Source: an uncultured Bacteroidales bacterium (GTDB taxonomy: Bacteria > Bacteroidota > Bacteroidia > Bacteroidales > Muribaculaceae). From it: a DNA stretch of 64,000 nucleotides. Numbering within the stretch: the stretch's first letter is position 1; the number at the start of each line of letters is the position of its first letter. The DNA is taken from positions 108,642 to 172,641 of the forward strand of contig CADBDH010000010.1 in NCBI GenBank assembly GCA_902793405.1. Reading direction: 5' to 3'. A model generated the notes under the pieces. That model saw only the letters and a program-made list of their open reading frames with translations, made no database searches and was not told where the DNA came from. The position numbers and the translations under genes were made by a program. Positions 142-59,820 of the stretch are shown piece by piece.

Positions 142-172
142 TCTCACTAATCACTAATCTCTAATCATCAAT
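142..172. repeat. 7-bp tandem array (array 1)
   Basis: Plus-strand units ACTAATC, ACTAATC, TCTAATC, ATCAATC. The array fills the gap between the susD stop and the start of the next lipoprotein and overlaps the last susD codons. Read in the gene direction the units are GATTAGT-like, each with a TAG. The same cassette, atatctcactaatcac, recurs at array 5 (35327-35403). Confidence 0.75.
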
Positions 173-1789
173 CACTCTACGGTCCCACCACAGTCGGGTG
201 CCGCCATTGTCCTGACCACCGCCCGGGGCCTCGGCATCCAGCAGTTGGATGGCAGCCTGCACAGCGGCCTCGTTGGTGTTGTATTCCTGCACCGGGAAGG
301 GGCAACGGCGCACCTGGATTTGGGTATCTATCAGTCCCTGGCTGTCGTTGTTCACAACGGGCAGCAGGCGGGGATAGCCCGTACGGCGGAACTCCGCCCA
401 GCCCTCACAGCCATCGGGGAACATCGCAATCCATTTCTGGGTAATGATGCGCTCCAGGTTGGTCTCAAAGTCGGCCTCATCGTCCCAGGCGATGGTGATA
501 CTGCTGGGAGCCGATGCCGCATTGCCGCCATTGGTGCGGTCCACATATCGGGTGGGTATCAATGACGAGTTGGTGATGTAAGCGTCCTCGCCGCTCACGC
601 CGTTCTCGCTGAATGAAGCGCGGATGCCCGCCTCATAGAAGGCGCGTGCCGTTCCGCCCATGTTCCAACCGCGCAGCGCCGCCTCGGCACGCAGGAAGTA
701 GCCCTCGGCGGCCGTCATCCACACGATGGGTGTGGTGGCACGGTCGACGTTCAGGTTGGAGATATAGGCGCCGGCATAGCGCGTGGGGTTCATGTTGTGG
801 ACGCCCAGTCGCACGCCGTGATACTTGTTATCGCTGCTGGCGGGAACGAAGTAGGCCGCCAGACGCGGGTCGCTGTAACCGTTCATGTAGCAGTCCATCG
901 TCGCGCCCATGCGCACCTCACCCGCATTGAAGTTATAAGCGATATCATAGTTGGGGTGGAAGTAGGTCAAACGGCCGTGCAGCAGTTGGGCACGCTCGGC
1001 TGCCGTCTCGATAAATCCCAGCGGGCAAGCCGCCGATTTTTCGGCTTCCTGTCGGGCCAGGGCGGCATCGGCATAAACCACACGCAAGGCCAGACGCAGT
1101 CGCAAGGTGTTGGCAAACTTGACCCAACGGGCCACGTTGCCCTCATAGACGTTGTCATAGTCGGGCAAAAGCGATTCCCCCGACTCGGCCAGCGGGGTGA
1201 GCACGTCGATGGCGCTATCCAGTTCGGAGAAAAAACGGGTGTACACGTCCTGCTGGCGATTATAGGTCGTGCCTAGGCTTCCGCTGCCAAAGCTGATATA
1301 AGGAATGGGACCGTACATGTCGGTCACGCGGTGCAAGGCCTCGACCTTGACAATCGTGGCAAGGGCGGCCACCGCCGGCTGGTTCATCTCTCCCGCCACA
1401 CGGGTCACACGCTGCCAGGCCGGCATCACCTCGCTGAAGGCGCGCGTGAACATCTGGTCATACCAGCCGCTCACAAAACTGTAGGAGCCGTTGTGCACAC
1501 CGTTGCGCCAAGTGCCCGTCAGGCCCACATAGCCCGAAAAGGCATCGGCACTCAAGCCCTGAGCCACCTGGTAGTCCGACGACAGGCAGTTGCCCGAGCC
1601 GTCATCAAACAGGACGACCCGATTGACCATCTGCGAGAAAAACGCACCCACATTTTGGTAGTCCCGGGCCAGTTCCTCATCGGTGAGCTGGTGCTGGTTG
1701 GTGTTGATATCGTCAAACGACTTGGTGCATCCGGCCAGCATGATTGTGGCGGTCACCACCATGAATATATGATTGATTGTTATCTTCAT
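161..1789 (-). CDS. SusD/RagB-family outer-membrane nutrient-binding lipoprotein
   Basis: A 542-residue lipoprotein with signal MKITINHIFMVVTATIMLAGC (Cys 21), followed by KSFDDINTNQHQLTDEEL, the typical opening of the SusD-like/RagB lipoproteins. Length is normal for the family (about 500-600). SusD proteins sit on the cell surface as a lid over the SusC barrel and capture oligosaccharides or peptides for uptake; the substrate cannot be read here. It follows the SusC-like gene by 7 bases, so the two are co-transcribed. The body is intact, unlike its SusC partner. The stop codon lies inside a 7-bp repeat array. Confidence 0.93.
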   Translation of the reverse strand: MKITINHIFMVVTATIMLAGCTKSFDDINTNQHQLTDEELARDYQNVGAFFSQMVNRVVLFDDGSGNCLSSDYQVAQGLSADAFSGYVGLTGTWRNGVHNGSYSFVSGWYDQMFTRAFSEVMPAWQRVTRVAGEMNQPAVAALATIVKVEALHRVTDMYGPIPYISFGSGSLGTTYNRQQDVYTRFFSELDSAIDVLTPLAESGESLLPDYDNVYEGNVARWVKFANTLRLRLALRVVYADAALARQEAEKSAACPLGFIETAAERAQLLHGRLTYFHPNYDIAYNFNAGEVRMGATMDCYMNGYSDPRLAAYFVPASSDNKYHGVRLGVHNMNPTRYAGAYISNLNVDRATTPIVWMTAAEGYFLRAEAALRGWNMGGTARAFYEAGIRASFSENGVSGEDAYITNSSLIPTRYVDRTNGGNAASAPSSITIAWDDEADFETNLERIITQKWIAMFPDGCEGWAEFRRTGYPRLLPVVNNDSQGLIDTQIQVRRCPFPVQEYNTNEAAVQAAIQLLDAEAPGGGQDNGGTRLWWDRRVIDD

Positions 1790-18572: not shown

Positions 18573-18621
18573 ACTAAGGACTAACAACTAAAAACTAAGG
18601 ACTAACAACTAAAAACTAAAA
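18573..18621 (+). repeat. 7-bp tandem array (array 2)
   Basis: Seven consecutive units of ACTAANN (NN = GG, CA or AA), ending one base before the ATG of the kinase-AAA gene. An imperfect hairpin (18545-18563, GCCACGAC/GTCATGGC) stands between the preceding stop and the array. TAA occurs in all three frames. Confidence 0.9.
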
Positions 18622-20474: not shown

Positions 20475-20516
20475 ACTAGAAACTAAGGACTAAGGACTAG
20501 AAACTAAAAACTAAAA
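20475..20516 (+). repeat. 7-bp tandem array (array 3)
   Basis: Six units of ACTARNN ending three bases before the next ATG. Units with TAG (ACTAGAA) and TAA (ACTAAGG, ACTAAAA) alternate, so a stop codon is kept in every unit. Confidence 0.88.
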
Positions 20517-20519
20517 TAC

Positions 20520-20936
20520 ATGGACTTAAACAAACTGATGATGGAATTCCTTGCCGAGGAAGGATTCCGCCCCCACGAGACGCCGTTTGGCATCGCCTTC
20601 AAGAGCGAAGGCTTGAATTTCCTCTACTTCAAGGACGAGGAAGACGAACAGTACTTCAGGCTGATGATGCCTGCCATCTTTGTAGTCACCGAGGACAATG
20701 AGGACACCGTTTTGAGCGTGATGAACGACGTGAACGGCACCATCAAGGTCGTCAAGCTCTACACCATGGACATGGATGACGAAGACGGGAAAACCGAGAA
20801 AAGCGTATGGGTCGCCTTTGAAATCCTGGCCGACACAACGCCCGAACTCAACGACATCGTACCGCGTGCCATCGCCCTGCTGCGCAGCGCACGCATCACC
20901 TTCCTCGCCAAGCTCGAGGAAGTCGCTGACCATTAA
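20520..20936 (+). CDS. Small acidic protein, YbjN/secretion-chaperone-like fold possible
   Basis: 138 residues, no signal peptide, no membrane segment and many Asp/Glu (for example KDEEDEQYF near 38-46 and DMDDEDGKTEK near 82-92). The pattern of an N-terminal helix, a beta meander and a long C-terminal helix (VPRAIALLRSARITFLAKLEE) resembles YbjN and type III secretion chaperone-like folds; this is a judgement by eye. It follows the kinase-AAA gene by 55 bases filled by a repeat array, so it may be a substrate, adaptor or regulator of that protein. The gene ends before a bidirectional terminator. Confidence 0.75.
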   Translation: MDLNKLMMEFLAEEGFRPHETPFGIAFKSEGLNFLYFKDEEDEQYFRLMMPAIFVVTEDNEDTVLSVMNDVNGTIKVVKLYTMDMDDEDGKTEKSVWVAFEILADTTPELNDIVPRAIALLRSARITFLAKLEEVADH

Positions 20937-21023: not shown

Positions 21024-24000
21024 TCAGTTGCCCAGCAGGTTGTCAATCAGGGCGGCCACATCGGCAATGTTGATGCGGCCGTCGCTGTTGATGTCTGCAC
21101 AGATGGGACATAGCTCAAGGCTGCTGTCAAGCAGGCCATCGATCAGGGCGGTCACATCGGCAATGTTGATGCTGCCGTCGTGGTTCACGTCGCCCACCTC
21201 ATAGCCGTGGCCCTGCTGCTCGAGCAGGGTAACGTTCTCGACGTTGCTGGCGGCCTTGGTGCCATCGATGTAGTTGGCCTCTACATAGTAAGTATAGGTA
21301 GCGCCAGGAGTCAGATTCTCGACTACATAGTACTGGTCGGTGATGCCGGTGATGATGCGGCTGTTTTCGTCGCCAGTCTCGTTAACGGCCTTCAACTGAG
21401 GCATGTTTCCGCCGTAAACCTGCACACTGTAGAGGTAGAAGCGCTTCTTGTTGGCGATACACGACAGGGTGACGTTCTGTCCCTCGGCAGCGGTCACGCC
21501 GTTGAGCACAACGGTGTAGTCGGCGGCCTCGGTAGTCAGTTCAACGGTATCGGCGATCTCACCACAGGAAACGATGACCGAGCTGCCGTCGTTCAGGTAG
21601 CTCATCGCATTGAACTTCACGGTCACGGTGCCGCCGCTGTTGGTCAGGTCAAGGGCAGGAGTGGTCAGGTAGCCCGTCTTGGTGCCGGCACCCAGCTTCA
21701 TGCCGCCGCCACCTGCCAGATATACGCCATAACCGGTCCAACCGGCATTGTCGCAATAGTCATCAAGTTCGCCGTTGTCACCCAGGTCGCGGCTGGCATC
21801 GCTGCCGGGTACGTCCTCGCTGTAGAAGGTCTCGTTGAGCAACAGACCTGCAGGCTGATTCTGCTTGATGTTGACATACAGCGTGTAGTCCTTCACATAC
21901 TGCTCGGGCGTGATGTCGAGCCAGTCGGCACGGAACGAGGTAGCGGTCACATACTCCTCGTCGGCGGGCTGCATCTCGGGAGCGAGCGTCTCCATCGTGG
22001 CGGTGCCGTTAAGGGTAACCGTCACATCCTCGGCGCCTTCGCTCGAGATGGTAATGGTGGCAGGATGTTCGCCCGTCGTGGTGGGAGCAAAGGTCACGGT
22101 AACCGTGGCGCCTTCTTCGGCATCGGCCTTGCTGATGGTGGCGGGCTCGATGGTGTAAACGCCGTTCTCGTCATTCAGGGTGACGGTCACGTCGCCTTCA
22201 AGGTTGGCGCCCAGGATATCAAAGGTTGCGGTAACGGTCTCGCCCACTCCAGCGGTCATCGTCAGCGTCTCGGGGTCAACGATGAGTTCGGGAACGATGA
22301 CGGTGGTCAGAGTCACCTGCTCGGTATTGGAGGCGGCATTGCTGCCGTCATTGTAATTGGCAACGACGTAGAACTGATAGGTTGCTCCGGCAGTCAGGCC
22401 CTCGACAGTATAGGTCTTGGCGGTAATGCCCGTGATGGTGCGGTTGCTGGCGTCACCGGTCTCGGTGGCGTTAAGTGCGCCCTTGGCACCATTATAGATG
22501 GTCACGTTGTGCACATACACGCGCTTGCCGGCGGCAGGGCACGACAGGGTTACCTGCTGGCCGGCGGCAGCAGTCACGCCGGTGAGCGTGACGGTATAGT
22601 CGGCGGCTGCGGCATCGAGTTCAACGGTCTGGCTCACGTCGCCACACGACACGATCAACGAACTGCCGTCACTGCCATAGTAATTGGCGTTGATGGCTAC
22701 CACGAGGGTGCCGTTGTTCGCAGCCAGTGCGGGAGTGGTGATATAGCCCACCTTGGAGCCGCTACCCAGCTTGAAACCGCCGGTTGCAGCCTCATAGGCC
22801 GCATAGCCCGTCCAGCCTGCATTGTCGCAGTAGTCATCCATCGTCTCGCCACGGTCATAGGTGCCGTCCTTGGTCACGTTCACGCCGGCGAAGGTCTCGG
22901 TCAACAGCACGTTGCCTGTTGCACCCACCTTGTTGACATACAGGGTGTAGTCCTTCACGTTCTGGGCGAGCGTCTCGTCGGTCCATGTGGCGGTAAACGA
23001 GGTAGTGCCCACGTTGGTGGCAGCAGCCATCACGGGGGCGACGGTCTGCATGGTGGCGGTACCGTTCAGGGCAACGGTAACGGCCTGTGCGCCCTCGCTT
23101 GTCACGGTAACGGTGGCTTGGTGCGTACCGGTAGCGGTGGGAGCATAGGTCACGGTAACAGTTGCACCTTCCTCGGCGTCGGCTTTGCTGATGGTCGTTG
23201 GATTGACGGTGTAAACGCCGTTGGCGTCATTGACGGTCACGGTGACATTACCCGTCAGGTCGGCACCCAACACGTCGAAGGTTGCCGTGGCGGTCTCGCC
23301 AATGTTGGCGGTCATCGTCAGCGCCTCGGGGTCAACGATAATCTCGGGCGTGGGAGTTGCCGTGCCCTCCAGGGTAACGGTCTGCACGTTAGACTGCTTC
23401 TTGGTGCCGTCGGTATAGTTGGCCTCGACATAGAACCTGTAGCTGCCGCCCTCGTTCAGATTGTTGACGGTATAATTCTTGGCAGTGATACCGGTGACGA
23501 TGCGACTGTTGGCATCACCCGTCTCGACGGCCTTGAACATCATGCTGGCGTTGCCCGAAACGATTTCGATGTTGTCGATGTAGAAACGTTTCTTCTTGGC
23601 GGTGCCGGCAAAGGTCACCGTCTGGCCTGCTGCAGCGTTCACGCCCGTGAGCACTACAGTATAGTCGGCTTCGCTGGCCGTGAGTGCCACGGTCTGGCTG
23701 GCCGAGCCACAGGTAACGACCACCGAGCTGTTGTCGCTGCCGTAATACTTGGCATTGAACTTCACGGTGATGGTGCCACCGCAGCTGCTCATGTCAAGGG
23801 CGGGAGTGGTGAGCGAGCCTGCATAACTGCCGCTGCCCACTTTCACCGTGCCGCCGACACCCTGATATACATAACTGCCCGTCCAACCGCTGTTATCGCA
23901 ATAGTTATCGAGCGAGTTGGCGATGTTGCTGCTGCCGTCGTTTTCAACGGTAACGCCGGCAAAGGTCTCGGCCAGCAAGGTCACAATGTTCGGGTCATAT

Positions 24001-25253
24001 TGGGTCACATAGAGCGTATAGTCGGTCACGTTCTCGCTCGGGGTCTCGTCGGTCCAGCTGGCACGGAACGAGGTGGTGCCCACGTTACCGGCTTGGGCCA
24101 TCACGGGATCATGTTTCTCCAGGGTGCTCTCGGGATAAACACCGATGATCATGTCCTGGTAGTAACTGAAGGTATAGCCACTGCCCTTGAAGGCATCCAG
24201 GGCATAGTAGTTGTCGTCATAGCCACTCCAACCGAAGTTCACGTGGTACTTGCTCGTGCTGGCATTGTAGCCGTCAACGACAAAGGCATGGCCGCCGGCA
24301 TAATAGTCGTTACCACCATACAGGATGGGGCGACCGGCCTCGAGCTCGGCCTGCATCATGGCGTTCCAGTTGGCAGCGCTGTGGTCGTCACGATACTTGA
24401 CGGTAGCATCCGAACTGTAGCCAAACTTGATCATGGCGGCACATTCGTCCTCGGTGTAGGCGCCGCTGCCGTCGGGCGAATACATCATCTGCACAGCCTG
24501 GCCGCAATAGCGCATCAGCCATGCCACGGCATTGGCCTGAGTGGTGTTGTAATTCACAGTGCTGTAGTCGTCAAGCATATTGTCCCAGTCCAGCGTGATG
24601 CCGGGCAGAGCGGGAACATTGAAACGGGGCGACTCGGCAGTCGTGTAGGCATCCAAGGCGGGCAACTCGGCGGGATACTTCCAGTAATACATCACCTGGG
24701 CCATCGCCGTTGCCACACAGCCGGTCATGCAATACTGGCCGTTATACTTCGGGCACTGGTTGTAATACGGGGCTTCCTGGTCCCATGTGCTCGACATCAG
24801 CATGGGCACGGTGGTTGCCGTGAGCATGGTCGACATGAATTGGGTTGTGGTCTCGACCTGAGCCTTGGGATTGGCAATCAGCCATTCCATCTGCTGCTTG
24901 TACTGGTTGAGCCACCAGGCAACGTTGCTGGGCAGGTTGTTCACGTCCATGCGGCCGCTGCCGTAGCCCAGGATTTCCTCGGCACGGTCGTCACCGCTCA
25001 CGATGACATAGCCGCCACCTTCGTAGTTGAACACATAGTAGTCGTTGGCCTTGGCATCGACGGCCGATTTCTCGGCATGCGTCAGTTTCAGGTTGGCGTT
25101 CGACGCCATCATCCTGGTGCCAGGCTGACTGTTCATGAACTGGATTGCACGGGCCTGAGCGGCGCGCGAGTCCACATTGGCTGCCGTCATGGTGGCCACG
25201 GTAAAGGCCATCATCACGAGCATCAATGACTTGAAGTAACTCAATGATCTCAT
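21024..25253 (-). CDS. Secreted C10-family cysteine protease with repeated modules and dockerin-like tail
   Basis: 1409 residues. Signal peptide (1-25), inhibitory pro-domain (about 26-130, ANDYYVFNYEGGGYVIVSGD), then a streptopain/interpain-type catalytic domain with nucleophile Cys 179 (TGCVATAMAQVMYYWKYP) and His 322 (GGHAFVVDGY). Next come three copies of a jelly-roll module (DNSGWTG...TTPALD), each followed by a fibronectin III-like segment, with two immunoglobulin-like modules (about IVDPEALTMTA...) between them. The last 65 residues hold two dockerin-like loops, DVNHDGSINIADVTALID and DINSDGRINIADVAALID. It degrades extracellular protein. It is monocistronic, with a promoter at 25351-25381 and a terminator at 20964-20998. 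Confidence 0.92.
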   Translation of the reverse strand: MRSLSYFKSLMLVMMAFTVATMTAANVDSRAAQARAIQFMNSQPGTRMMASNANLKLTHAEKSAVDAKANDYYVFNYEGGGYVIVSGDDRAEEILGYGSGRMDVNNLPSNVAWWLNQYKQQMEWLIANPKAQVETTTQFMSTMLTATTVPMLMSSTWDQEAPYYNQCPKYNGQYCMTGCVATAMAQVMYYWKYPAELPALDAYTTAESPRFNVPALPGITLDWDNMLDDYSTVNYNTTQANAVAWLMRYCGQAVQMMYSPDGSGAYTEDECAAMIKFGYSSDATVKYRDDHSAANWNAMMQAELEAGRPILYGGNDYYAGGHAFVVDGYNASTSKYHVNFGWSGYDDNYYALDAFKGSGYTFSYYQDMIIGVYPESTLEKHDPVMAQAGNVGTTSFRASWTDETPSENVTDYTLYVTQYDPNIVTLLAETFAGVTVENDGSSNIANSLDNYCDNSGWTGSYVYQGVGGTVKVGSGSYAGSLTTPALDMSSCGGTITVKFNAKYYGSDNSSVVVTCGSASQTVALTASEADYTVVLTGVNAAAGQTVTFAGTAKKKRFYIDNIEIVSGNASMMFKAVETGDANSRIVTGITAKNYTVNNLNEGGSYRFYVEANYTDGTKKQSNVQTVTLEGTATPTPEIIVDPEALTMTANIGETATATFDVLGADLTGNVTVTVNDANGVYTVNPTTISKADAEEGATVTVTYAPTATGTHQATVTVTSEGAQAVTVALNGTATMQTVAPVMAAATNVGTTSFTATWTDETLAQNVKDYTLYVNKVGATGNVLLTETFAGVNVTKDGTYDRGETMDDYCDNAGWTGYAAYEAATGGFKLGSGSKVGYITTPALAANNGTLVVAINANYYGSDGSSLIVSCGDVSQTVELDAAAADYTVTLTGVTAAAGQQVTLSCPAAGKRVYVHNVTIYNGAKGALNATETGDASNRTITGITAKTYTVEGLTAGATYQFYVVANYNDGSNAASNTEQVTLTTVIVPELIVDPETLTMTAGVGETVTATFDILGANLEGDVTVTLNDENGVYTIEPATISKADAEEGATVTVTFAPTTTGEHPATITISSEGAEDVTVTLNGTATMETLAPEMQPADEEYVTATSFRADWLDITPEQYVKDYTLYVNIKQNQPAGLLLNETFYSEDVPGSDASRDLGDNGELDDYCDNAGWTGYGVYLAGGGGMKLGAGTKTGYLTTPALDLTNSGGTVTVKFNAMSYLNDGSSVIVSCGEIADTVELTTEAADYTVVLNGVTAAEGQNVTLSCIANKKRFYLYSVQVYGGNMPQLKAVNETGDENSRIITGITDQYYVVENLTPGATYTYYVEANYIDGTKAASNVENVTLLEQQGHGYEVGDVNHDGSINIADVTALIDGLLDSSLELCPICADINSDGRINIADVAALIDNLLGN

Positions 25254-25433: not shown

Positions 25434-25496
25434 ACTAAAAACTTAAAACCTATTGTCCAAAACCTAACACCTAACACCTAAAGCCTAATACCCAAA
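25434..25496. repeat. 7-bp tandem array (array 4)
   Basis: Nine 7-base units: ACTAAAA, ACTTAAA, ACCTATT, GTCCAAA, ACCTAAC twice, ACCTAAA, GCCTAAT, ACCCAAA. It covers the last codons and stop of the 966-residue C10 protease and the region after it. In the direction of that gene most units contain TAG or TAA. This is the most degenerate array and lies far from the next start. Confidence 0.7.
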
Positions 25497-28385
25497 TATC
25501 ACCCCGATGATGGCATTGACGTCGGCAATGTTCACATCTCCGTCAAAGTTCGCGTCGCAGACCAGTTCATTTTTGCCTCTCAGCATGGAGTCTATCACTG
25601 CGTTGACATCACCAATATTCACCTCGCCGTCGCCGTTCACATCGCCATCGCACATGCTCACCCCTTCCAGATGCTCAAACTGGCTCCAGAACGGTGCTGA
25701 CTGATAGGCGGCTAATGCCCCCGCGGGAACACGCACTACGGCATTCTTGTAGATGGCGTTGGAGAAGCAGTCCTTGGTGACTATCACCGGTGGTGTTGTC
25801 GCCTTGCAGACGATCTCGTTAATCACCATACTGGCATTGAAGGCCTTGCTGTCCATCAACTCCAGGCCGCGCCCCAGCGTCACACGCTTGAGGCCCGTGC
25901 AGTTGCCCAAAGCCAGTTCGCCAATGGATTTCACGCCGTTGCCCAGCGTCACCTCGGCCAGATTAGTGCACTTATAGAAGGACTTCTCTCCCACGGTCTG
26001 CACATCCTTGCCAATGGTCGCGTTGGTCAGTCCCTCACAGGCATGAAACGCATAATCATTGATGGCGCTCACCCCCGCGGGTACGACCATTTGAGTCACT
26101 TCCTCGCCGTTCACATAGAGATGCCTTGCCACACTCAAGGGATTGGCGTTCACACCCCCGAATCGGATGCCCAGCCACGACGCCACACTGCCGGCATTGA
26201 CGCGTTTAAGGAAACGGCAACCCGCAAAAGCATCGCCGCCAATCGCAGTGACACTTTCAGGAAGGGTAATTTCCTGAAGGCGGATACAGGAATTGAACGC
26301 TTTGCCGGCAATGCTATCGAGGGCATCGCCAAAGTCAATGTTTCTCAATGCAGTACACTCGTAAAATGCGCCGTAACCGACAACAGTCTGATGAGAAGGG
26401 AGCTTGACAGTGGTCAATGCCGAGCATTGGTAGAATGGAAATTCCGCCATTTTCACGTTAGCACCCTGGAAATCGACACGCTCCAGCGCAGTGCACCCCA
26501 AGAATGAGGCATAGCCCAGGCTGTCGAGCGATGCCGGGAATGTCAACGATTTCAACGACGGGCAATCACTAAATGCATATTCGCCGATGCTGCTGACGCT
26601 GTTAAACGTGACCTCGGCAAGTAGCGGGCATTCCTCGAAGGCTTCATTATGGATGACCGGATTGCCATTGCCTATCGTCACCTTTTCCAAGTTTGGACAA
26701 TAAGCAAAGGCAAATCTACCTATCGATGCGACTCCGTCCCCGATCGTGACGTTCTTCAGTCCCTCGCAAAAGATAAAGGTGTTGCGCCCGATTGATTTGA
26801 CTTCATCGCCTATCACAAGATCGGTTACCTCCTGGCCATCGCAATACAGGTGCTTGGCATAAAACAATGGCGTCATATAAACTGGGAAGTCAATCGATGC
26901 CCAGGTGCCCACGTCTTCGACATTCACCCGCTGCAATGAGGTCATGCGGGCGAAGGTGCCAAATTCCGACGTAAACGCTTTACCAAAGGACACTTCACGC
27001 AACCGATTGGAGCCGACAAACACATCAGAGCCAAACCTCTCGATGGACAACATGCTGACCGACGTGAGCCCGTCGCACCACGAGAAGGCACCGTCGCCAA
27101 CAGCAGTGACGCGGTAGGTCACACCGTCATGCTCCACTTGCGACGGAATGACGACATCGCCATGATAAGAGTTGTATTTCTGGTCACGGCAGGTCACAGT
27201 GGCCTCGCTGCCATTTTTCTGGTAATAGATGCCGCCAACCTCAAAGTCATAGGCAGGCTGTGGTTCCGACCCGCCATCATCGGCCGGGTAAACCTTGTAA
27301 TTCATGCTGAGGTTATACCTGTATTCATAGCCGGGAGGGCCTAGCAGGTCCATTTCATAATAGCCTTCGTCATAGCCGTAATTGCCCCAGTTGACATGAT
27401 ACTTGCCGTCTTTGCAGCCATCCAGGATAAAGGCATGGCCGCCGTTACCCGTATAACCGCTGAAGGGGATGGGGTGACCGGCCAGCAACTCGCTGTCTAA
27501 CATGGCCTTCCACTCCGAAGCGCTAAAGTCATTACGAAACAACAGTTTTGCCTCGTGATTGTAGCCAAACTGTTTGAAGGCGATAAGTTGGTCGATCTCG
27601 TGGGCACCGCTGGCGGTGACTGTATAGTCCATCAAGGCAGCCTGGCCGCAATAGCGCATCAGCGTGGCCACTGCCGCCCCCTGCTCGTCGTTATACCCAT
27701 AAGAATAGGTGTCCAGCATGTTGTCCCAGTCCAGGATGACGGGAGGCAGGGCTTCGACAGGAATCTGGAGTGACTCTGTCACATAGCCGTCCACCGCAGG
27801 CAGTTCGGCAGGATACTTCCAGTAGTTCATCACCTGGGCCATGGCGGTGGCAATGCAACCCGTGACACAACGCCGCCCGTTGTACATGACGCACTGGTCA
27901 TTATAGGGAGTGCCCTGGCCCCACATGCTGGTGAGCATCGGCTCAACAACAGGCTCCTCGCCTTCGGTCTGTTGGGAACGTGGCACGACATGCGCCTCGG
28001 GATGCTCACGCAACCACTCGATTTGTGACTTGTACTCGTCGAGCAGCCAGCGCAGGTTCTCGGGTATTTCGCTCATATCCAGCCTGCCGGGGCCATAGCC
28101 CAGAATAGCCTCCACACGGTCATCGCCGGCGACAAGGATATAGCCGGCATCGCCTTCGGCATTGAACACATAGTAGTCGGCCAGACCGGCATCATGCGAC
28201 GAGGTTTCTACATGGGCAAGGCGCAAGGTCACATTGGGCGATTTGAACATGCCCTGGGAAGTCGAGGAGAGGAAACTTGTCGCATGCTCCAGGGCGGCAT
28301 CGGCATCGACAGGGGCTGCACTCACATTCAGGCCCAGCAAGACAAGGGCAGCCGGCAAAATCAGTTTAAGGTAAACATGCTTCAT
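25485..28385 (-). CDS. Secreted C10-family cysteine protease with BspA-type leucine-rich repeats and dockerin-like tail
   Basis: 966 residues. Signal peptide to about 24 (NVSAAPVDA), pro-domain, catalytic domain with Cys 177 (TGCIATAMAQVMNYWKYP) and His 317 (GGHAFILDG), then from about 390 to 890 a chain of BspA/LRR_5 repeats with the cadence SIGxxxFxxCxxLxxVxI (for example IGRFAFAYCPNLEKVTIGNG). Two dockerin-like loops close the protein: DVNGDGEVNIGDVNAVID and DANFDGDVNIADVNAIIG. LRR_5 regions bind host or microbial surface proteins, so this is probably a targeted protease. It has its own promoter at 28445-28475. The protease part is paralogous to both neighbours. Confidence 0.92.
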   Translation of the reverse strand: MKHVYLKLILPAALVLLGLNVSAAPVDADAALEHATSFLSSTSQGMFKSPNVTLRLAHVETSSHDAGLADYYVFNAEGDAGYILVAGDDRVEAILGYGPGRLDMSEIPENLRWLLDEYKSQIEWLREHPEAHVVPRSQQTEGEEPVVEPMLTSMWGQGTPYNDQCVMYNGRRCVTGCIATAMAQVMNYWKYPAELPAVDGYVTESLQIPVEALPPVILDWDNMLDTYSYGYNDEQGAAVATLMRYCGQAALMDYTVTASGAHEIDQLIAFKQFGYNHEAKLLFRNDFSASEWKAMLDSELLAGHPIPFSGYTGNGGHAFILDGCKDGKYHVNWGNYGYDEGYYEMDLLGPPGYEYRYNLSMNYKVYPADDGGSEPQPAYDFEVGGIYYQKNGSEATVTCRDQKYNSYHGDVVIPSQVEHDGVTYRVTAVGDGAFSWCDGLTSVSMLSIERFGSDVFVGSNRLREVSFGKAFTSEFGTFARMTSLQRVNVEDVGTWASIDFPVYMTPLFYAKHLYCDGQEVTDLVIGDEVKSIGRNTFIFCEGLKNVTIGDGVASIGRFAFAYCPNLEKVTIGNGNPVIHNEAFEECPLLAEVTFNSVSSIGEYAFSDCPSLKSLTFPASLDSLGYASFLGCTALERVDFQGANVKMAEFPFYQCSALTTVKLPSHQTVVGYGAFYECTALRNIDFGDALDSIAGKAFNSCIRLQEITLPESVTAIGGDAFAGCRFLKRVNAGSVASWLGIRFGGVNANPLSVARHLYVNGEEVTQMVVPAGVSAINDYAFHACEGLTNATIGKDVQTVGEKSFYKCTNLAEVTLGNGVKSIGELALGNCTGLKRVTLGRGLELMDSKAFNASMVINEIVCKATTPPVIVTKDCFSNAIYKNAVVRVPAGALAAYQSAPFWSQFEHLEGVSMCDGDVNGDGEVNIGDVNAVIDSMLRGKNELVCDANFDGDVNIADVNAIIGVIFGY

Positions 28386-35306: not shown

Positions 35307-35326
35307 CTAACCCTTCAATATATCTC

Positions 35327-35403
35327 ACTAATCACTAATCACTAATCACTAAACTCTAAACTTTAAACTTTAAACTTTAAACTTTAAACTTTAAACTTTA
35401 AAC
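35327..35403. repeat. 7-bp tandem array (array 5)
   Basis: Eleven units on the plus strand: ACTAATC three times, ACTAAAC, TCTAAAC, then six identical TTTAAAC. It lies between the fur stop and the mtgA start and directly abuts the hairpin at 35404-35435. Read with the genes, each unit has TAA or TAG. Confidence 0.92.
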
Positions 35404-35435
35404 TGCAATGTTCAAGCCTTGTCTTGAACATTGCA
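35404..35435 (-). terminator. Perfect hairpin across the fur stop codon, abutting array 5
   Basis: TGCAATGTTCAAG (35404-35416) pairs perfectly with CTTGAACATTGCA (35423-35435), loop CCTTGT. It covers the last codons of fur. There is no U-run, so it may be an attenuator or an RNA-stabilising 3' structure rather than a classical terminator. Confidence 0.65.
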
Positions 35436-35861
35436 CTCCGGACACAGCCCCTTGAGCACATAATTGATGCTGTGAACCTGGAAATTGCCCGGCAAAGCGA
35501 CCAGCGGCACCTGCGTCGTTTGCAGGCAGAAGGTGCGTCCGCAGCGTTCGCAGTTGAAGTGGGCATGCATGTGGTCGATGGTGCCGTCGTCCTCGCCGCA
35601 GTGGCAGTCGGGACTACACACGGCATACTTGAACATGCCTGTGCCGTCGTCGATGGCATGAACCAGATGATGGGTCAGGAACAGGGTGATGGTGCGGTAG
35701 ATGGTCGATTTGTCCACCGTTTCCAACTCATCCTCCAGGCTTTGCAGCGAGAAGGCGTCGTCATGGGCCATCATGGTGCGCAACAGCAGGATGCGCATCG
35801 CCGTAGGCTTCACCTCGTGGGCTTCGAGCCGTTCAATGTATTTCGTCTCGTCTTTCATCAA
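35412..35861 (-). CDS. Fur-family metal-responsive transcriptional regulator
   Basis: 149 residues. An N-terminal winged helix (about 10-85: KPTAMRILLLRTMMAHDDAF, VDKSTIYRTITLF) is followed by a dimerisation and metal-binding part with HMHAHFNCERCGRTFCL (about 109-125, the CxxC structural zinc site) and a second pair, CPEC, near 141-144. This is the Fur/Zur/PerR group; which metal it senses cannot be told. The start overlaps the upstream susD stop, so it is translationally coupled to a SusC/SusD pair. This suggests that the uptake system is metal-regulated or feeds the regulator, an inference from gene order. Confidence 0.9.
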   Translation of the reverse strand: MMKDETKYIERLEAHEVKPTAMRILLLRTMMAHDDAFSLQSLEDELETVDKSTIYRTITLFLTHHLVHAIDDGTGMFKYAVCSPDCHCGEDDGTIDHMHAHFNCERCGRTFCLQTTQVPLVALPGNFQVHSINYVLKGLCPECNVQDKA

Positions 35862-46719: not shown

Positions 46720-47250
46720 TTAATTGTCTATAAATTGTTTCATCTTGTCCTTGCCGCGATAAATGAGCGACTTGACCGACCCCTCAGGCATCTGCATGAT
46801 CTTGGCCACCTGCTTGATGGGCTGGTCCTCGATATAGAACAAGGTGACGGCCACACGCTCGTTGTCGTTCAATGCCTCCAGTGCACGTTTCACCGTCATC
46901 GACGCGTCGATGGCATCGCTGGCAGCGGTGCTCACCTCGGCCAGGCGGGTGATGTCCTCGACATGCTCTTCCTGGTGGCGGCGCATGTGGTTATAGAACT
47001 CATTGTAGGCAATGCGGTACAGCCAGGTGCCAAAAGACGAAAGCCCCTTAAAACTGCGTATGCCCACATAGGCCTTGATGAACGTCTCCTGTGCCAGGTC
47101 GTCGGTCAGCATCTCGTCACCCGTGGTCAGGTTCAGCAAGAACCGACGCACGCGCGGCTGATAGGCTTCGACGAGCCGGCCGAATGCGTCCCGGTTGTCG
47201 GCCAGGGCGCATTGCGACAGCAGTCTTATTTCATCAAGCTTGGAAAGCAT
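46720..47250 (-). CDS. ECF-type RNA polymerase sigma-70 factor
   Basis: 176 residues from the ATG at 47250 (MLSKLDEIRLLSQC); the longer frame begins only with TTG. Region 2: DAFGRLVEAYQPRVRRFLLN and DDLAQETFIKAYVGIRSF. Region 4: ALEALNDNERVAVTLFYIED followed by the helix-turn-helix QVAKIMQMPEGSVKSLIYRG. This is an extracytoplasmic-function sigma factor. The genes on either side (DUF6249 membrane protein before, small membrane protein after) point to an envelope-stress circuit. A hairpin and a 7-bp array precede the gene. Confidence 0.93.
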   Translation of the reverse strand: MLSKLDEIRLLSQCALADNRDAFGRLVEAYQPRVRRFLLNLTTGDEMLTDDLAQETFIKAYVGIRSFKGLSSFGTWLYRIAYNEFYNHMRRHQEEHVEDITRLAEVSTAASDAIDASMTVKRALEALNDNERVAVTLFYIEDQPIKQVAKIMQMPEGSVKSLIYRGKDKMKQFIDN

Positions 47251-47318
47251 CGAGATAATAATTTTTAGTGTAACGATCTTACTATGAAATGTTGTTCTCT
47301 CCGTCAAGAAGAAACCTC

Positions 47319-47339
47319 TCTAAACTCTAAACCCTAAAC
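47319..47339. repeat. 7-bp tandem array (array 6, short)
   Basis: Three units TCTAAAC, TCTAAAC, CCTAAAC, directly abutting the hairpin at 47340-47375, in the leader of the sigma factor gene. Read with the genes, the units are GTTTAGA-like with TAG. Confidence 0.65.
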
Positions 47340-47375
47340 TTCTAGTTCTGAAGCCTTGTCGCTTCAGAACTAGAA
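47340..47375 (-). terminator. Perfect 15-bp hairpin abutting array 6
   Basis: TTCTAGTTCTGAAGC (47340-47354) pairs perfectly with GCTTCAGAACTAGAA (47361-47375), loop of six bases. It starts three bases after the stop of the DUF6249 gene. There is no U-run; the 7-bp array follows instead. Confidence 0.75.
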
Positions 47376-47378
47376 TTC

Positions 47379-48296
47379 TCAATAAGGTTGGTAGGGAGTG
47401 TTGTCGTCCTCCTTGTAGTCTTGATCGAAGCTGGGCGGCACGGGGATGCCCTCACGCATGGGCTCACGGGGCGACATCTGCTGGCCACGGTTCCAAGCCT
47501 CTTGCAGCGCCTTCTGCTCCTTGTAGAGGATAAAGCCCTTACACAGTCCCACAACCACCAGGGCCAAACCGATGGGCCAGAACGGATTCTCAGCATCACC
47601 TATTGCTACGCTGAACAGTATCATCACGGTTCCCCAGCCAATCCACTTCACGGCAGGCATCAAGGCACGCCAGTTCACCATGTCGGTCATCACGATGGGG
47701 TTATCGGGAGTCTGGCCGCTGATAGGCGTTCCCACGGGCACTTGTCCCGGCTGCTGTGCCGACGCGGCATTCACCACGGGAGGAGCGGTCACCACGGGCT
47801 GCTGCACATAGATGGCGCTGCGCTTCACGTCGTTCAACGACAGCTCATTGAGCGGGTAGTTGTTCTCGATGGCCTTCTCGATGACACGGTACCTGTTGCG
47901 GCGGTTCAGGAAGCGGAAAAACATCACCAGAGCCACCAGTCCCAGCAAACAGAATGATCCGCTGATAGCGATTTGTTTGGCCACACTGGCCCACTGGTTG
48001 CTGATCTCCTTGATGTCCTCGGGAGCAAGTTCGCCACTCTGGTCACCGATTTCCACAGTAGTGCCGCTACCGCCTGTCAGGGTATCGTCAAGAGCACGGT
48101 TGATTTTGTCGCGCACCTTCTGCAGTTCGGGCATCCCGCTCAGGGTTACCGACTCCTCGCCGTCAGAAACGGTAATCGAGTCGCCCTTGAATTCGATGTT
48201 GGCCTTGTTTGCAGGCTTTGCCTTGTTAACCGGTGCAGCTGTGACGGCAAGAGCCATCGTCAGCATCATCACCAATGTTAGAATCGTCTTTTTCAT
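47379..48296 (-). CDS. DUF6249-type exported membrane protein
   Basis: 305 residues. Signal peptide MKKTILTLVMMLTMALAVTAA, an exported acidic domain (about 25-110), a membrane helix (about 113-131), then MFFRFLNRRNRYRVIEKAIE, which is the DUF6249 landmark, and two more helices (about 215-260) before a Pro-rich C-terminus. It precedes the ECF sigma factor on the same strand, with a hairpin and array between. A role as sensor or target of that sigma factor is inferred. The protein family is uncharacterised. Confidence 0.85.
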   Translation of the reverse strand: MKKTILTLVMMLTMALAVTAAPVNKAKPANKANIEFKGDSITVSDGEESVTLSGMPELQKVRDKINRALDDTLTGGSGTTVEIGDQSGELAPEDIKEISNQWASVAKQIAISGSFCLLGLVALVMFFRFLNRRNRYRVIEKAIENNYPLNELSLNDVKRSAIYVQQPVVTAPPVVNAASAQQPGQVPVGTPISGQTPDNPIVMTDMVNWRALMPAVKWIGWGTVMILFSVAIGDAENPFWPIGLALVVVGLCKGFILYKEQKALQEAWNRGQQMSPREPMREGIPVPPSFDQDYKEDDNTPYQPY

Positions 48297-52617: not shown

Positions 52618-53466
52618 ATGAAGATTATCAGCAAGGTCAATGAGTTGCGCGAGGCCGTTCAGGCTTTTCGCGAGGCAGGTAAGTCAGTAGGTCTGGTGCC
52701 CACGATGGGCGCTTTGCACGAGGGTCACAAGTCGCTCGTTGAGCGCGCCCGCAAGGAGAACGACGCCGTTGTCGTGAGTTGCTTCTTGAACCCCACGCAA
52801 TTCAACAACAAGGAAGACCTGCGCACCTACCCCCGCACCGCCGAGCGCGATGCGGCCATGCTCGAGGCATGTGGTGTTGACGTGGCTTTCATGCCCACCG
52901 TCGAGGAAATCTATCCCGAGCCCGACACCCGTGAGTTTGACCTTGGCCCCGTCCAGCAGGTGATGGAAGGCGCTATGCGCCCCGGCCACTTCAACGGCGT
53001 GTGCCAGATTGTGAGCAAGCTCTTCACTTGGGTGATGCCCGACCGTGCCTACTTTGGCGAAAAGGACTTCCAGCAGATTGCCGTCATCCGCGCGATGATC
53101 AAGCAACTGGGATTTGATATCAATATCGTGCAGTGCCCCTGCGTGCGTGAGGACGACGGCCTGGCCAAGAGCAGCCGCAACGTGCGCCTCACCCCCGAGG
53201 TGCGCAAGGTTGCCCCGCAAATCTATGCCACCCTGCAACGCAGCCTGGAGTTTGCCAAGGACCACACCGTGGAGCAGACCCATGACTGGGTGGTTGCGAC
53301 CATCAACGCATGGCCCGAGATGGATACCGAGTACTTCTCGATTTGTGACGGCATCACACTGCAGCCCGTTACCAGCTGGGACGAGACCGACTTCATCGTG
53401 GGATGCATCACCGTCTATTGTGGCGACGTGCGCGAGATCGACAACATCACCTACAAGAAACTCTAG
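52618..53466 (+). CDS. panC: Pantothenate synthetase
   Basis: 282 residues. The N-terminal VPTMGALHEGHKSLVERA (about 28-45) is the ATP-binding HIGH-type site, followed by FLNPTQFNNKEDLRTYPR, GHFNGVCQIVSKLF and GEKDFQQIAVIRAM, all family landmarks. It joins pantoate and beta-alanine using ATP, making pantothenate for coenzyme A. It is followed by panD, which supplies the beta-alanine. Full length. A 7-bp array of 15 units separates it from panD. Confidence 0.96.
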   Translation: MKIISKVNELREAVQAFREAGKSVGLVPTMGALHEGHKSLVERARKENDAVVVSCFLNPTQFNNKEDLRTYPRTAERDAAMLEACGVDVAFMPTVEEIYPEPDTREFDLGPVQQVMEGAMRPGHFNGVCQIVSKLFTWVMPDRAYFGEKDFQQIAVIRAMIKQLGFDINIVQCPCVREDDGLAKSSRNVRLTPEVRKVAPQIYATLQRSLEFAKDHTVEQTHDWVVATINAWPEMDTEYFSICDGITLQPVTSWDETDFIVGCITVYCGDVREIDNITYKKL

Positions 53467-53471
53467 GCCTC

Positions 53472-53576
53472 ACTAACAACTAAAAACCAGAAACTAGGGA
53501 CTAGAAACTAGGGACTAGAAACTAGGGACTAGAAACTAGGGACTAGAAACTAAGAACTAACAACTAAAAACTAAAA
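53472..53576 (+). repeat. 7-bp tandem array (array 7, longest)
   Basis: Fifteen consecutive 7-base units between panC and panD. The middle alternates ACTAGGG and ACTAGAA four times; the ends are ACTAACA, ACTAAGA and ACTAAAA, plus one ACCAGAA. All but one unit contain TAA or TAG. The array ends five bases before the panD ATG. Confidence 0.95.
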
Positions 53577-53581
53577 AGAAG

Positions 53582-53944
53582 ATGTACATCCAGGTCATGA
53601 AATCCAAGATTCACCGCGTGACGGTGACCGATGCCAATCTCAACTACATTGGCAGCATTACCATTGATCAGGACCTCATGGATGCCGCCGGCATCATCGA
53701 GGGCGAACGCGTATATATCGTTGACGTCAACAACGGTGAGCGACTGGACACATACACTATCGCCGGCGAGCGCGGCAGTGGCACCATCTGCCTGAACGGT
53801 GCAGCAGCACGCAAAGTCGAGGTGGGTGACATCGTCATCATCATGGCCTATGCCATCGTCACCCCCGAGGAGGGCCGCGAGTTCAAGCCCCAGATCGTCT
53901 TCCCCGACACGGCGACTAACCGTCTCATCAAGAAAAAGAAATAA
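53582..53944 (+). CDS. panD: Aspartate 1-decarboxylase (pyruvoyl enzyme)
   Basis: 120 residues. [20 protein letters not shown] (about 8-27) contains the Gly-Ser self-cleavage site (YIGS) that makes the pyruvoyl cofactor; [20 protein letters not shown] (about 76-95) is the other conserved block. It decarboxylates aspartate to beta-alanine for the PanC reaction. The position directly after panC shows a pantothenate operon. Its start codon follows the longest 7-bp array of the window. Confidence 0.96.
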
Positions 53945-54012: not shown

Positions 54013-55362
54013 ATGTTTGAAAATTTATCTGATAAACTCGAACGGTCATTTAAGGTCCTGAAAGGACAAGGCCGCATCACCGAAATCAACGTAGCATCTA
54101 CCCTCAAGGAAGTGCGCCGCGCACTGGTTGACGCCGACGTCAGCTATCCCGTCGCCAAGAAGTTTGTCGATGACGTCAAGGCTAAAGCCATGGGCCAGAA
54201 CGTTATCAATGCCGTCAACCCCAGCCAGCTGATGGTCAAGATCGTCCACGACGAGCTGGCCGAGCTGATGGGTGGCGAAGAGTCGACCTTCAGCATCGAG
54301 GGCAACCCCGCCGTCATCCTGATGTCGGGTCTGCAGGGTTCCGGTAAGACCACTTTCACCGGCAAACTCGCCAACCGCCTCAAGAACGGCAAGGAAAAAC
54401 GCAAACCGCTGCTCGTGGCCTGCGACGTCTATCGTCCCGCCGCTATCGACCAGCTGAAGACCATTGCCGAGCAGATCGAGGTGCCCGTCTATAGCGAGCC
54501 CGAGAGCAAGGACCCCGTGGCCATCGCGCTGCACGCCATCGACCATGCTAAGCAGAATGGCTTTGACCTGGTGATTGTCGATACCGCCGGTCGTCTGGCC
54601 GTTGACGAGGCCATGATGGTCGAAATCAAGGCCATCAAGGATGCCATCCACCCCAACGAGACCCTCTTTGTTGTTGACTCAATGACCGGTCAGGATGCTG
54701 TCAACACGGCCAAGGCGTTCAACGAGCGCCTGGACTTTGACGGCGTCGTGCTCACCAAGCTCGACGGTGACACCCGTGGCGGTGCCGCCCTGTCGATTCG
54801 CGCCGTCGTTGACAAACCCATCAAGTTTGTCGGTATCGGCGAGAAGATGACCGACCTGGACCCCTTCCGTCCCAAAGGTATGGCCGACCGCATCCTGGGC
54901 ATGGGCGACATCGTGTCGTTTGTAGACCGCATGCAGCAGCAGTACGATGAGGAAGAGGCCGAAAAGCTGGAGAAGAAAATCAAGCAGAACAAGTTCGACT
55001 TCGAAGATTTCCTCAAGCAGATCAAGCAAATCAAGAAGATGGGTAACCTCAAGAGCCTGGCATCGATGATTCCTGGCGTGGGCAAGGCCATCAAGGATAT
55101 CGATATCCCCGACGACGCTTTCAAGGGCGTGGAAGCCATCATCGGCTCAATGACGCCGAAGGAGCGCTCCAACCCCGACATTATCGACGCCAGCCGACGC
55201 AAACGCATCGCTGCCGGTAGCGGCACCAGCGTCGAGGAAGTCAACCGCCTGTTGAAGCAATTCCTGTCGATGCGCAAAGTTATGCACCAGGTATCGACCA
55301 ACCCCATGCAGATGATGCGCAACGCCAAGGCTCAAGCCAAGGCCGCCAAACGAGGAAGATAA
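54013..55362 (+). CDS. ffh: Signal recognition particle protein Ffh
   Basis: 449 residues: N-domain helical bundle, then the GTPase G-domain with GLQGSGKTTFTGKLAN (P-loop, about 109-124), DVYRPAAIDQL, DTAGRLAVDEAM, TKLDGDTRGG and GEKMTDLDPF, and a C-terminal M-domain that binds signal sequences and 4.5S RNA. It brings ribosomes making membrane proteins to FtsY and SecYEG. Length is normal. The 4.5S RNA gene is not visible in the window. A perfect hairpin follows the stop. Confidence 0.97.
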   Translation: MFENLSDKLERSFKVLKGQGRITEINVASTLKEVRRALVDADVSYPVAKKFVDDVKAKAMGQNVINAVNPSQLMVKIVHDELAELMGGEESTFSIEGNPAVILMSGLQGSGKTTFTGKLANRLKNGKEKRKPLLVACDVYRPAAIDQLKTIAEQIEVPVYSEPESKDPVAIALHAIDHAKQNGFDLVIVDTAGRLAVDEAMMVEIKAIKDAIHPNETLFVVDSMTGQDAVNTAKAFNERLDFDGVVLTKLDGDTRGGAALSIRAVVDKPIKFVGIGEKMTDLDPFRPKGMADRILGMGDIVSFVDRMQQQYDEEEAEKLEKKIKQNKFDFEDFLKQIKQIKKMGNLKSLASMIPGVGKAIKDIDIPDDAFKGVEAIIGSMTPKERSNPDIIDASRRKRIAAGSGTSVEEVNRLLKQFLSMRKVMHQVSTNPMQMMRNAKAQAKAAKRGR

Positions 55363-55365
55363 TGA

Positions 55366-55397
55366 TTCAAGAGAGCAAGCCAACTTGCTCTCTTGAA
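55366..55397 (+). terminator. Perfect hairpin after ffh, before array 8
   Basis: TTCAAGAGAGCAAG (55366-55379) pairs perfectly with CTTGCTCTCTTGAA (55384-55397), loop CCAA. The U-run is only three bases. A 7-bp array starts 17 bases on. Confidence 0.75.
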
Positions 55398-55414
55398 GTT
55401 TAAAGCCCCCTTCA

Positions 55415-55449
55415 ACTAACAACTAAAAACTAACAACTAAGAACTAAAA
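55415..55449 (+). repeat. 7-bp tandem array (array 8)
   Basis: Five units ACTAACA, ACTAAAA, ACTAACA, ACTAAGA, ACTAAAA, then a shortened ACTTA, ending at the ATG of the CapA-like gene. Confidence 0.88.
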
Positions 55450-55454
55450 ACTTA

Positions 55455-56516
55455 ATGAAACTGCTCTCCATATTGATGCTGTCGCTCGTGTCGTTGTTGC
55501 AAAGCAACCACACGGTGAATCTGACGTTCGTGGGCGACGCGATGCAGCACGCACCGCAAATCACCGCCGCCCAGCAAGCCGATGGCACCTATGACTACAG
55601 CCCCTGCTTCCAATATCTCGAGGATGACATCCGTTGGGCTGATCTGGCAGTTGTCAATCTGGAATGCCCCTTGGGCGGCAGGCCCTACACGGGCTATCCC
55701 TGCTTCAGTGCGCCCGAAAGCTATGCACAACAGTTGCGGCAAGTGGGCTTCGACCTGTTTCTCACGGCCAACAACCACTGTCTGGACCGCCGTGACAAGG
55801 GACTGGTGCGCACATGCCATACACTCGATTCGTTGAACATTCCCCACATAGGCACCTACCACAACCAGCAGGAACGCGACCAGCGCATCCCTTATATCGT
55901 CAATGTCAAGGGTATGAAAATCGCCTTCCTTGACTATACCTACGGCACCAACGGCATTCCCATTCAGGGTAATGTCATCGTCGATTTCATTGACCAGCAG
56001 CTCATTGCCGATGATATCGCACTAGCCCGTGAACGCGGAGCACACGCCATCTGCGTGAATCTGCACTGGGGCATCGAGTACCAACTCAAACCCGTTGCCT
56101 CGCAGCGCACACTTGCCGATTGGCTGGTCTCCCAGGGCGTGGATCTCATCATCGGCGGACACCCCCATGTGGTCGAACCCATGGAGGTGCGCTACAGCAA
56201 GGAGTTTGACAAGAATGTGCTGCTCGTCTACAGCATGGGCAACTTCATCAGCAACCAGAGCGACATCGACACCCGTGGAGGCGCCATGGTCAAGGTATCG
56301 CTCAGGATGGAGAACGGCCGCGCTGTTATCGCCGACCCGCACTACAAACTCTTCTTCGTCCAGAAACCCGTTGCTCGCGGCCAGAACTACGTTCTCATCC
56401 CCGAGGCCCGTCCTGACCTGCTCCGCCCCGACAGCCGTGGCGAATTCACCCGTTTCATGCAACGCACCCACGACCTGGTCATGAGCAACAACAAGGACGT
56501 CCCTTGCGAGCAATGA
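55455..56516 (+). CDS. CapA-family (PgsA-like) metallophosphatase-fold protein
   Basis: 353 residues. A short signal-like N-terminus (MKLLSILMLSLVSLLQSN) is followed by the PGA_cap fold: TFVGDAMQHAPQ (about 24-35), DLAVVNLECPLGG, LTANNHCLDRRDKG, LHWGIEYQLKP and IIGGHPHVVEPMEV. These Asp, Asn and His residues form the calcineurin-like metal site. Family members take part in poly-gamma-glutamate capsule synthesis, but many bacteria that make no such capsule carry them. No pgsB/C genes are near, so the role here is unknown. It lies after ffh. Confidence 0.9.
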   Translation: MKLLSILMLSLVSLLQSNHTVNLTFVGDAMQHAPQITAAQQADGTYDYSPCFQYLEDDIRWADLAVVNLECPLGGRPYTGYPCFSAPESYAQQLRQVGFDLFLTANNHCLDRRDKGLVRTCHTLDSLNIPHIGTYHNQQERDQRIPYIVNVKGMKIAFLDYTYGTNGIPIQGNVIVDFIDQQLIADDIALARERGAHAICVNLHWGIEYQLKPVASQRTLADWLVSQGVDLIIGGHPHVVEPMEVRYSKEFDKNVLLVYSMGNFISNQSDIDTRGGAMVKVSLRMENGRAVIADPHYKLFFVQKPVARGQNYVLIPEARPDLLRPDSRGEFTRFMQRTHDLVMSNNKDVPCEQ

Positions 56517-59744: not shown

Positions 59745-59786
59745 TTCAGTTATCAGTTTTCAGTTGGCCGTCTTCAGTTTTCAGTT
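59745..59786 (-). repeat. 7-bp tandem array (array 9, TGA type)
   Basis: Six units: TTCAGTT, ATCAGTT, TTCAGTT, GGCCGTC, TTCAGTT, TTCAGTT. In the gene direction this is ACTGAAA-like, differing from ACTAAAA by one base and carrying TGA in place of TAA. It ends one base before the gene's ATG. Confidence 0.82.
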
Positions 59787-59820
59787 AGCATCCGCATTCA
59801 TCCGAAAACTGACAATTTAA

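Follow-up and report, generated by a model that had tools for sequence, protein, structure and literature searches.

The heptanucleotide repeats of Calothrix are known by the name STRR. Three tandem heptanucleotides have been reported in one genome of this cyanobacterium (PMC4692102), and heptads are reported to be the most frequent long repeats of a large number of genomes, polymerase slippage being the suggested origin (Mrazek 2007, as related in PMC4679880 and PMC4692102). Two other systems are close to the arrays analyzed here. Arrays of TAACTGA lie on the start side of genes in marine Beggiatoaceae, Cyanobacteria and a few Bacteroidetes, where translational regulation has been suggested (MacGregor 2015, PMC4679880), and G-rich GGGAATC or GGGGAYT heptads, proposed to form G-quadruplexes, occur in Xanthomonas and Nostoc (Rehm 2015, PMC4692102). 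The initiation regions of Bacteroidota have been described as Kozak-like and A-rich (Baez 2019, PMC6847099). Among the top literature matches, nothing was found on such arrays in this group of bacteria beyond the few TAACTGA sets in Bacteroidetes (PMC4679880). The statement in the initial annotation that no function has been described is therefore nearly right, but the kind of repeat itself is on record (MacGregor 2015, PMC4679880; Rehm 2015, PMC4692102). New here are the coexistence of several families in one genome, sorted by gene end, the family that follows hairpins and the dialects of different species; the exclusion of promoters, in one genome, and the negative tests of the stop-codon idea are new as well.

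The window, that is, the entire stretch of 64 000 nucleotides analyzed here, from an uncultured Bacteroidales bacterium of the Muribaculaceae, contains all nine arrays listed in the initial annotation, at or near the places given for them (TRF; both strands read). The period of 7 is also the only one in the window: a self-similarity scan of periods 4–12 recovers eight of the nine arrays and none with periods 4–6 or 8–12, and three local shuffles of the window yield no arrays. The array that the scan missed (59745-59786) is interrupted and was recovered by TRF, and in the array at 25434-25496 the regular stretch is limited to approximately 25459-25492. Higher-order periods of 14, 21 and 28 bp are present in the window arrays. 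The units were initially thought to be mostly ACTAANN or ACTAGNN, which is true of the four arrays on the + strand; the rest consist, in the sense direction, of GATTAGT, TTAGGYN, GTTTARR or AACTGAA. That starts, stops and post-hairpin sites have unit families of their own had been overlooked.

Five arrays directly precede start codons. On the + strand, an ACTAANN array of seven units (18573..18621) ends 1 nt before the ATG at 18623 of an AAA+/kinase-domain protein, an ACTAANN/ACTAGNN array (20475..20516) ends 3 nt before the ATG at 20520, and an array of approximately 15 units (53472..53577), which contains a 14-bp higher-order repeat (53489-53552), lies between panC (52618-53466) and panD (53582-53944), ending 4 nt before the ATG. 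The fourth, again ACTAANN (55413..55452), ends 2 nt before the ATG at 55455 of a PGA_cap family protein; on the same strand, a hairpin with a stem of 14, followed by GTTTAAAG (55366..55397), lies after the gene at 54013-55362, which, from its likeness, we take to be ffh. The fifth, on the - strand, is an AACTGAA array with TGA units (59745-59786, within an element at 59745..59813) located directly before the ATG at 59743; upstream of it are a GCGGATGC core and a left arm in inverted orientation (GTCAGTTTTC).

The other four arrays are on the - strand. A stop-side GATTAGT array (142..176) fills a short gap, overlapping the TAG stop (163-161) of a SusD-like gene (161-1789) and lying, with its far end, 1–3 nt before the ATG (140-138) of an open frame that runs off the window. 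A stop-side TTAGGYN array (25459..25492) overlaps the TAG stop (25487-25485) of a C10-peptidase/LRR gene (25485-28385), with approximately 205 bp to the next predicted start. In the neighboring region 21024-25253, two long open frames on opposite strands overlap (1409 aa on - and 1349 aa on +). The two remaining arrays are post-hairpin. At 35325..35404, GTTTARR units (~35350-35404) pass into GATTAGT units (~35325-35352) that end 18 nt before the ATG at 35306 of a transglycosylase, and a hairpin (35402..35437, - strand; stem of 15 with one mismatch, loop of 6) is found directly 5' of the GTTTARR part. The GTTTARR array at 47318..47339, between the gene at 47379-48296 and a sigma-70-like gene (46720-47250), likewise has a hairpin directly 5' of it (47338..47377, - strand; stem of 17 with at most one mismatch, loop of 6).

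All nine window arrays lie between co-directional genes, as initially noted (for 142-172, the left neighbor is the same-strand open frame running off the window), and the initial tally of four convergent and four divergent gaps in the window is also correct. The chance probability of nine out of nine is 0.06, however, since most gaps are of this kind: the 407 sampled ones with a length of 30 bp or more comprise 297 co-directional, 51 convergent and 59 divergent gaps. The sample taken from the genome to which the window belongs (hereafter, the home genome) is 864 kb, window included, of 3194 kb, with contigs partly drawn from those listed first for three consecutive ACTARNN units; genes were called by our own codon-usage script with revised starts, and the start positions are predictions. 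This sample contains 82 arrays with period 7, compared with 0–11 for each of the periods 4–6 and 8–13, and 54 with period 14, the double of 7. In a second genome, G024, 40 arrays have period 7 and 0–12 have periods 5–6 and 8–12; the G024 stretches were partly picked where matches had been listed, and the density of arrays there is not representative. In both genomes, the unit length of 7 exceeds the other lengths, as in other intergenic heptanucleotide repeats. The triple ACTARNN pattern has 545 matches in the 3.19 Mb of the home genome, and the same pattern read backwards has four.

The 82 arrays split into 62 co-directional, 10 convergent, 3 divergent, 2 genic and 5 at the ends of stretches; with the genic and edge arrays dropped, 75 remain for the gap counts. 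Arrays inside genes, named in the initial annotation as evidence that would speak against its reading, account for 2 of the 77 classified, i.e. the arrays are mostly intergenic. The co-directional enrichment is mild (p=0.035 against gaps, p=0.004 against base pairs), and with 10 convergent and 3 divergent arrays among 75, the rule that neither kind of gap holds an array, valid in the window, fails at the genome scale. Convergent gaps, in which arrays had been expected to be scarcer, are at expectation (p=0.86) and divergent gaps are depleted of arrays (p=0.003; both in the 864 kb sample). Co-direction is too narrow a rule. In 42 of the 75 cases, the distance from the array edge to the closest gene end is at most 8 nt, compared with 28.8 expected under a simple placement null; because short gaps dominate this null, it was replaced by orientation tests.

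The better rule is array polarity at gene ends. The A-rich, G-poor arrays with CTAA in the sense direction (ACTAANN) adjoin starts, and the arrays with TTAG in the sense direction adjoin or overlap stops (Fisher p=5e-10, two genomes pooled). In the co-directional gaps of the home genome, 25 of the 37 CTAA-type arrays are nearer the start and 22 of the 23 TTAG-type arrays are nearer the stop, with two arrays carrying neither motif (p=7e-7). For G024, the corresponding figures are 9 of 12 and 9 of 9 (neither sense motif in 9 of 30), and for clade relatives 11 of 13 and 5 of 5 (neither in 8), where one stretch, L186, is common to the last two sets. As for proximity to start codons, a suggested check, the 29 start-side arrays lie at a median distance of 4 nt from the start codon, and 28 of them are of the CTAA type. 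Among the convergent gaps of the 864 kb sample, none has an ACTAANN array oriented like the nearer gene, and all three divergent arrays have the CTAA sense relative to the nearer start.

The start-side arrays have A and G fractions of 0.56 and 0.09, respectively, with A>T in 28 of 29 and C>G in 24 of 29 (three ties); the stop-side arrays are richer in T and G. The C-versus-G polarity is repeated in G024 (p=0.015) and in the clade relatives (p=9e-5); the A>T polarity alone is not significant in either (10/14 versus 13/22, p=0.5, and p=0.09, respectively). In G309, from another family of the order, A>T holds for seven of seven start-side arrays versus one of seven stop-side ones (p=0.005), and the stop-side arrays lie right at the stop or reach into it (-4 to 3 nt). 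G246, from yet another family, shows no polarity, five of its eight arrays being separated from a gene end by over 20 nt, and most of 11 smaller stretches from other genomes have too few arrays to interpret. Of the stop codons with an array beginning at most 6 nt away, 11 of 16 are TAG, versus 58 of 418 overall (p=4e-7; in G024, 5 of 11 versus 32 of 234), which suggests that the TAG of a stop-side gene end is often provided by the first unit of the array. A fixed register of the units relative to the ATG was also considered; two of the three sets depart from evenness (p=0.013, 0.38 and 0.033), the pooled data do not (p=0.15), and the idea was dropped.

The GTTTARR family is distinguished by its association with hairpins. 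Directly upstream, 10 of 21 GTTTARR arrays have a terminator-like hairpin (stem of 11–18 bp, at most one mismatch). Such a hairpin precedes none of the 55 arrays of other families and is found at 56 of 1555 intergenic places chosen at random; families were counted on the two strands of every array, which gives 76 assignments. In the hairpin after the ffh-like gene (55366..55397), pairing is kept via two-sided changes at 3 of 14 pairs among six species, a comparison from which a seventh sequence with a misaligned 3' arm was left out and in which the script missed two more. An mRNA hairpin formed between two arms was considered separately: the median z is -1.07 with arrays and -0.63 without, with z<-2 in 14 of 46 and 38 of 132 cases, respectively, and, given these similar distributions, there is no general arm pairing.

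The geometry at gene ends is that of the Xanthomonas and Nostoc heptads, which follow stops on the coding strand, in some cases overlapping them, and precede starts on the non-coding strand (PMC4692102); here too, one strand follows stops and its complement precedes starts. As described for those heptads (PMC4692102), the location is mostly kept and the length and sequence vary between related species; unlike them, the arrays have A/T-rich CTAA/TTAG cores and include a post-hairpin family, and GGG, by eye, is absent from most window units. With the TAACTGA repeats, the arrays share the mostly intergenic location, the mostly forward orientation within a few nucleotides of the start codon, the usual lack of a Shine-Dalgarno site, sense stops in all frames and a patchy distribution among relatives (PMC4679880), and the genomes of this genus with TGA units (G001, G027) contain ACTGATAACTGATAACTGA. 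In that system, however, a single heptamer dominates and related ones are rare (PMC4679880), whereas here there are many heptamers, with families by gene end and dialects: the home genome has 545 ACTAR triples versus 7 units with an ACTGA center, and the exact TAACTGA triple is found at none of 260 loci. By eye, ACTAAGG units have some likeness to a Shine-Dalgarno sequence. Like the initiation regions of Bacteroidota, the sequences before starts are A-rich, weakly structured and free of Shine-Dalgarno sites; unlike the arrays, those regions, as characterized in PMC6847099, are neither tandem nor periodic.

Absence from close relatives, which had been named as potentially refuting evidence, is not the case: the sister species mostly keep heptads between panC and panD. 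The nearest panC relatives are seven loci, 81–96% identical, in MAGs labelled Prevotellaceae, Muribaculaceae, Porphyromonadaceae or Bacteroidales (14 of 80 panC-relative loci were looked at and 7 compared), and 15 close sister species have an ffh-like protein that is 95–98% identical. At least two heptad units (a loose criterion) are present at panC-panD in 13 of 16 species, the home genome included, and absent in 3; by the strict array score, the count is 7 of 16. The units differ across species (ACTAANN, ACTGANN, ACTTANN, ACTAGGG). At 11 outer-clade panC-panD loci, no array was seen by eye, most of these gaps being shorter. Across three array-prone junctions, at least two units are found in 13/16, 6/8 and 7/14 species, compared with 2/12, 1/6, 1/11 and 0/16 for four others (permutation p=2e-4, phylogeny ignored). 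At orthologous junctions, the unit thus changes but an array persists. In the species-level pair G035/G036, the units as well as the lengths differ at three array junctions; faster turnover at these junctions is not significant in this pair (3 versus 37 junctions, p=0.24).

Genomes also differ from one another in dialect, with TAG units in the home genome, G007 and G021, and TGA units in G001, G009, G011 and G062 (chi2 1681, 19 df, 20 of 41 genomes), with the reservation that units are not independent; the test left out 21 genomes with counts of 0–16, including G010 (16 TGA units) and G019 (11 TAG units). Pattern runs of approximately 250–285 bp in the sister species G024 (C17:180251-180500 and C40:119329-119613) suggest very long heptad arrays.

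Other short elements are dispersed in the same DNA. The GCATCCGC/GCGGATGC modules occupy 29 intergenic places in the home-genome sample (e.g. L115:5486 and L125:1664), compared with approximately 4 expected under a uniform base model, and 52 more in genes, which comprise about five times as much DNA; at 10 of the 29, a heptad array lies within 55 bp. Some of the modules adjoin heptad arrays or AATTCGTTTAATTCG stretches with a period of 9, and the DNA between genes resembles a patchwork of short modules scattered over the genome. Another inverted element, also dispersed, has arms with a 9-bp period (CGCTAAGGCGCTAAG ... CTTAGCGACTTTGCGGCTTAGCG) and is present in the gaps flanking the ffh-like gene (L152, L155, L157, L158, L159, L161, L163, L164); the junction that it occupies varies with the species, as if it had been copied between loci.

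The initial annotation proposed a transcribed spacer or an unstructured leader for initiation without Shine-Dalgarno pairing, and this proposal fits the data. The motif TANNTTTG, named as the Bacteroidota promoter in PMC6847099, is present in 6 of 50 array gaps versus 80 of 180 other gaps of 40–400 bp, and in 1 of 40 versus 27 of 108 for gaps of 40–150 bp; in G024, however, the deficit is not significant (2 of 17 versus 17 of 68). The start region (-20 to +12) is unpaired at 0.717 in array gaps (n=46) versus 0.615 in others (n=132; p=8e-5). In Flavobacterium johnsoniae, initiation is helped by A at -3, -6, -12 and -13 and by low structure (PMC6847099). The promoter and pairing data, together with the 4-nt median distance, fit transcribed, operon-internal leaders, but unit composition alone would give the same: the lower pairing and the A-richness follow from the unit itself, and a neutral array fits too.

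The other initial proposal, that the arrays block translational run-on, is not borne out, and units selected as stop-codon cassettes, halting ribosomes that run past a stop or read the wrong frame before the next start, appear very unlikely. The stops are real: in the window, all nine arrays stop the three sense frames, as initially observed, and in the home genome 71 of 75 do, compared with 39 expected after permutation of unit columns. But the antisense frames are likewise all stopped in eight of the nine and 71 of the 75, respectively, because CTAA and TTAG carry stops on both strands. In the sister genomes, the sense frames are all stopped in 31 of 36 arrays versus 23 of 36 for antisense, a lean that leaves some room for the idea. 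Changes that destroy the stop are, in the home genome, as common as those that keep it: TAG to TGG (ACTGG units) stands at 3:202 and TAA to TGA at ~7:343 (p=0.75; the 343 was obtained by subtracting 202 from 545, two counts whose patterns differ slightly in their flanks), and inside arrays ACCAA, with the stop lost, occurs five times and ACTGA, with the stop kept, three times, although redundant stops weaken such per-unit tests. Stopless array units exist in other families of the order, G246 included. The stops of the home genome are neither preferentially kept nor sense-specific, and selection for stops is not supported; stops in every frame would be a by-product of the CTAA/TTAG core and the period. 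The arrays could alternatively be arms of dispersed palindromic elements, mobile or copied, with a TTAG arm to the left and a CTAA arm to the right of a hairpin or GCATCCGC core, in which case symmetry alone would yield the orientation rule and no function need be involved. Some gaps do contain inverted arms, and these, together with the intergenic modules that have arrays nearby, point in this direction; yet many gaps are single-armed with the arm still adjoining the start, the units on the start side of genes in the home genome are not reverse complements of most of those on the stop side (TTAGGC, GTTTARR; GATTAGT, the complement of ACTAATC, is the exception), and no clean insertion with kept flanks was seen by eye. 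We consider this origin unlikely.

The arrays most likely act as spacers and unstructured ribosome landing zones rather than as stop-codon barriers. The account favored here, tentatively and at somewhat less than an even chance, is that these are slippage-born intergenic heptanucleotide repeats of which the start-side ones have been retained as leaders without Shine-Dalgarno sites. Arrays would arise and be homogenized in 7-nt steps by slippage or recombination, and coding DNA would be cleared of them, 7 not being divisible by 3; at starts, they would be kept as A-rich, G-poor, unstructured transcribed leaders because such a leader suits Bacteroidota initiation, which works without Shine-Dalgarno pairing. 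A close rival, possible although we would not call it probable, holds that they are neutral heptad satellites without function, built by slippage and gene conversion wherever the DNA does not code, with deletion trimming the rest of the spacer until the arrays touch gene ends. The near absence from genes, the higher-order periods, the turnover of units at kept locations, the genome-wide dialects and the reported abundance of heptads with its slippage explanation (Mrazek 2007, via PMC4679880 and PMC4692102) all agree with neutrality; plain slippage, however, predicts neither distinct families at starts, at stops and after hairpins nor matching polarity in one other family, and the depletion from divergent gaps also stands against it. 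A bolder reading, which we consider improbable, is a heptad punctuation system in which starts, stops and post-terminator sites each have their own family. A factor acting in trans, such as ribosomal protein bS1 or some RNA-binding protein, would read these families and position ribosomes at operon-internal starts lacking Shine-Dalgarno sites; co-evolution of this factor with the array sequence would explain the genome-wide TAG or TGA dialects.

So far, heptanucleotide repeats have come to notice case by case, in bacteria that are not related to each other. In the genome analyzed here, several families follow the gene-end geometry of Xanthomonas and Nostoc although their sequences are quite unlike those heptads, and the geometry recurs in one other family of the order. 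In a phylum whose initiation without Shine-Dalgarno pairing is still poorly understood, an old oddity, namely why seven and why gene ends, is thereby made testable.
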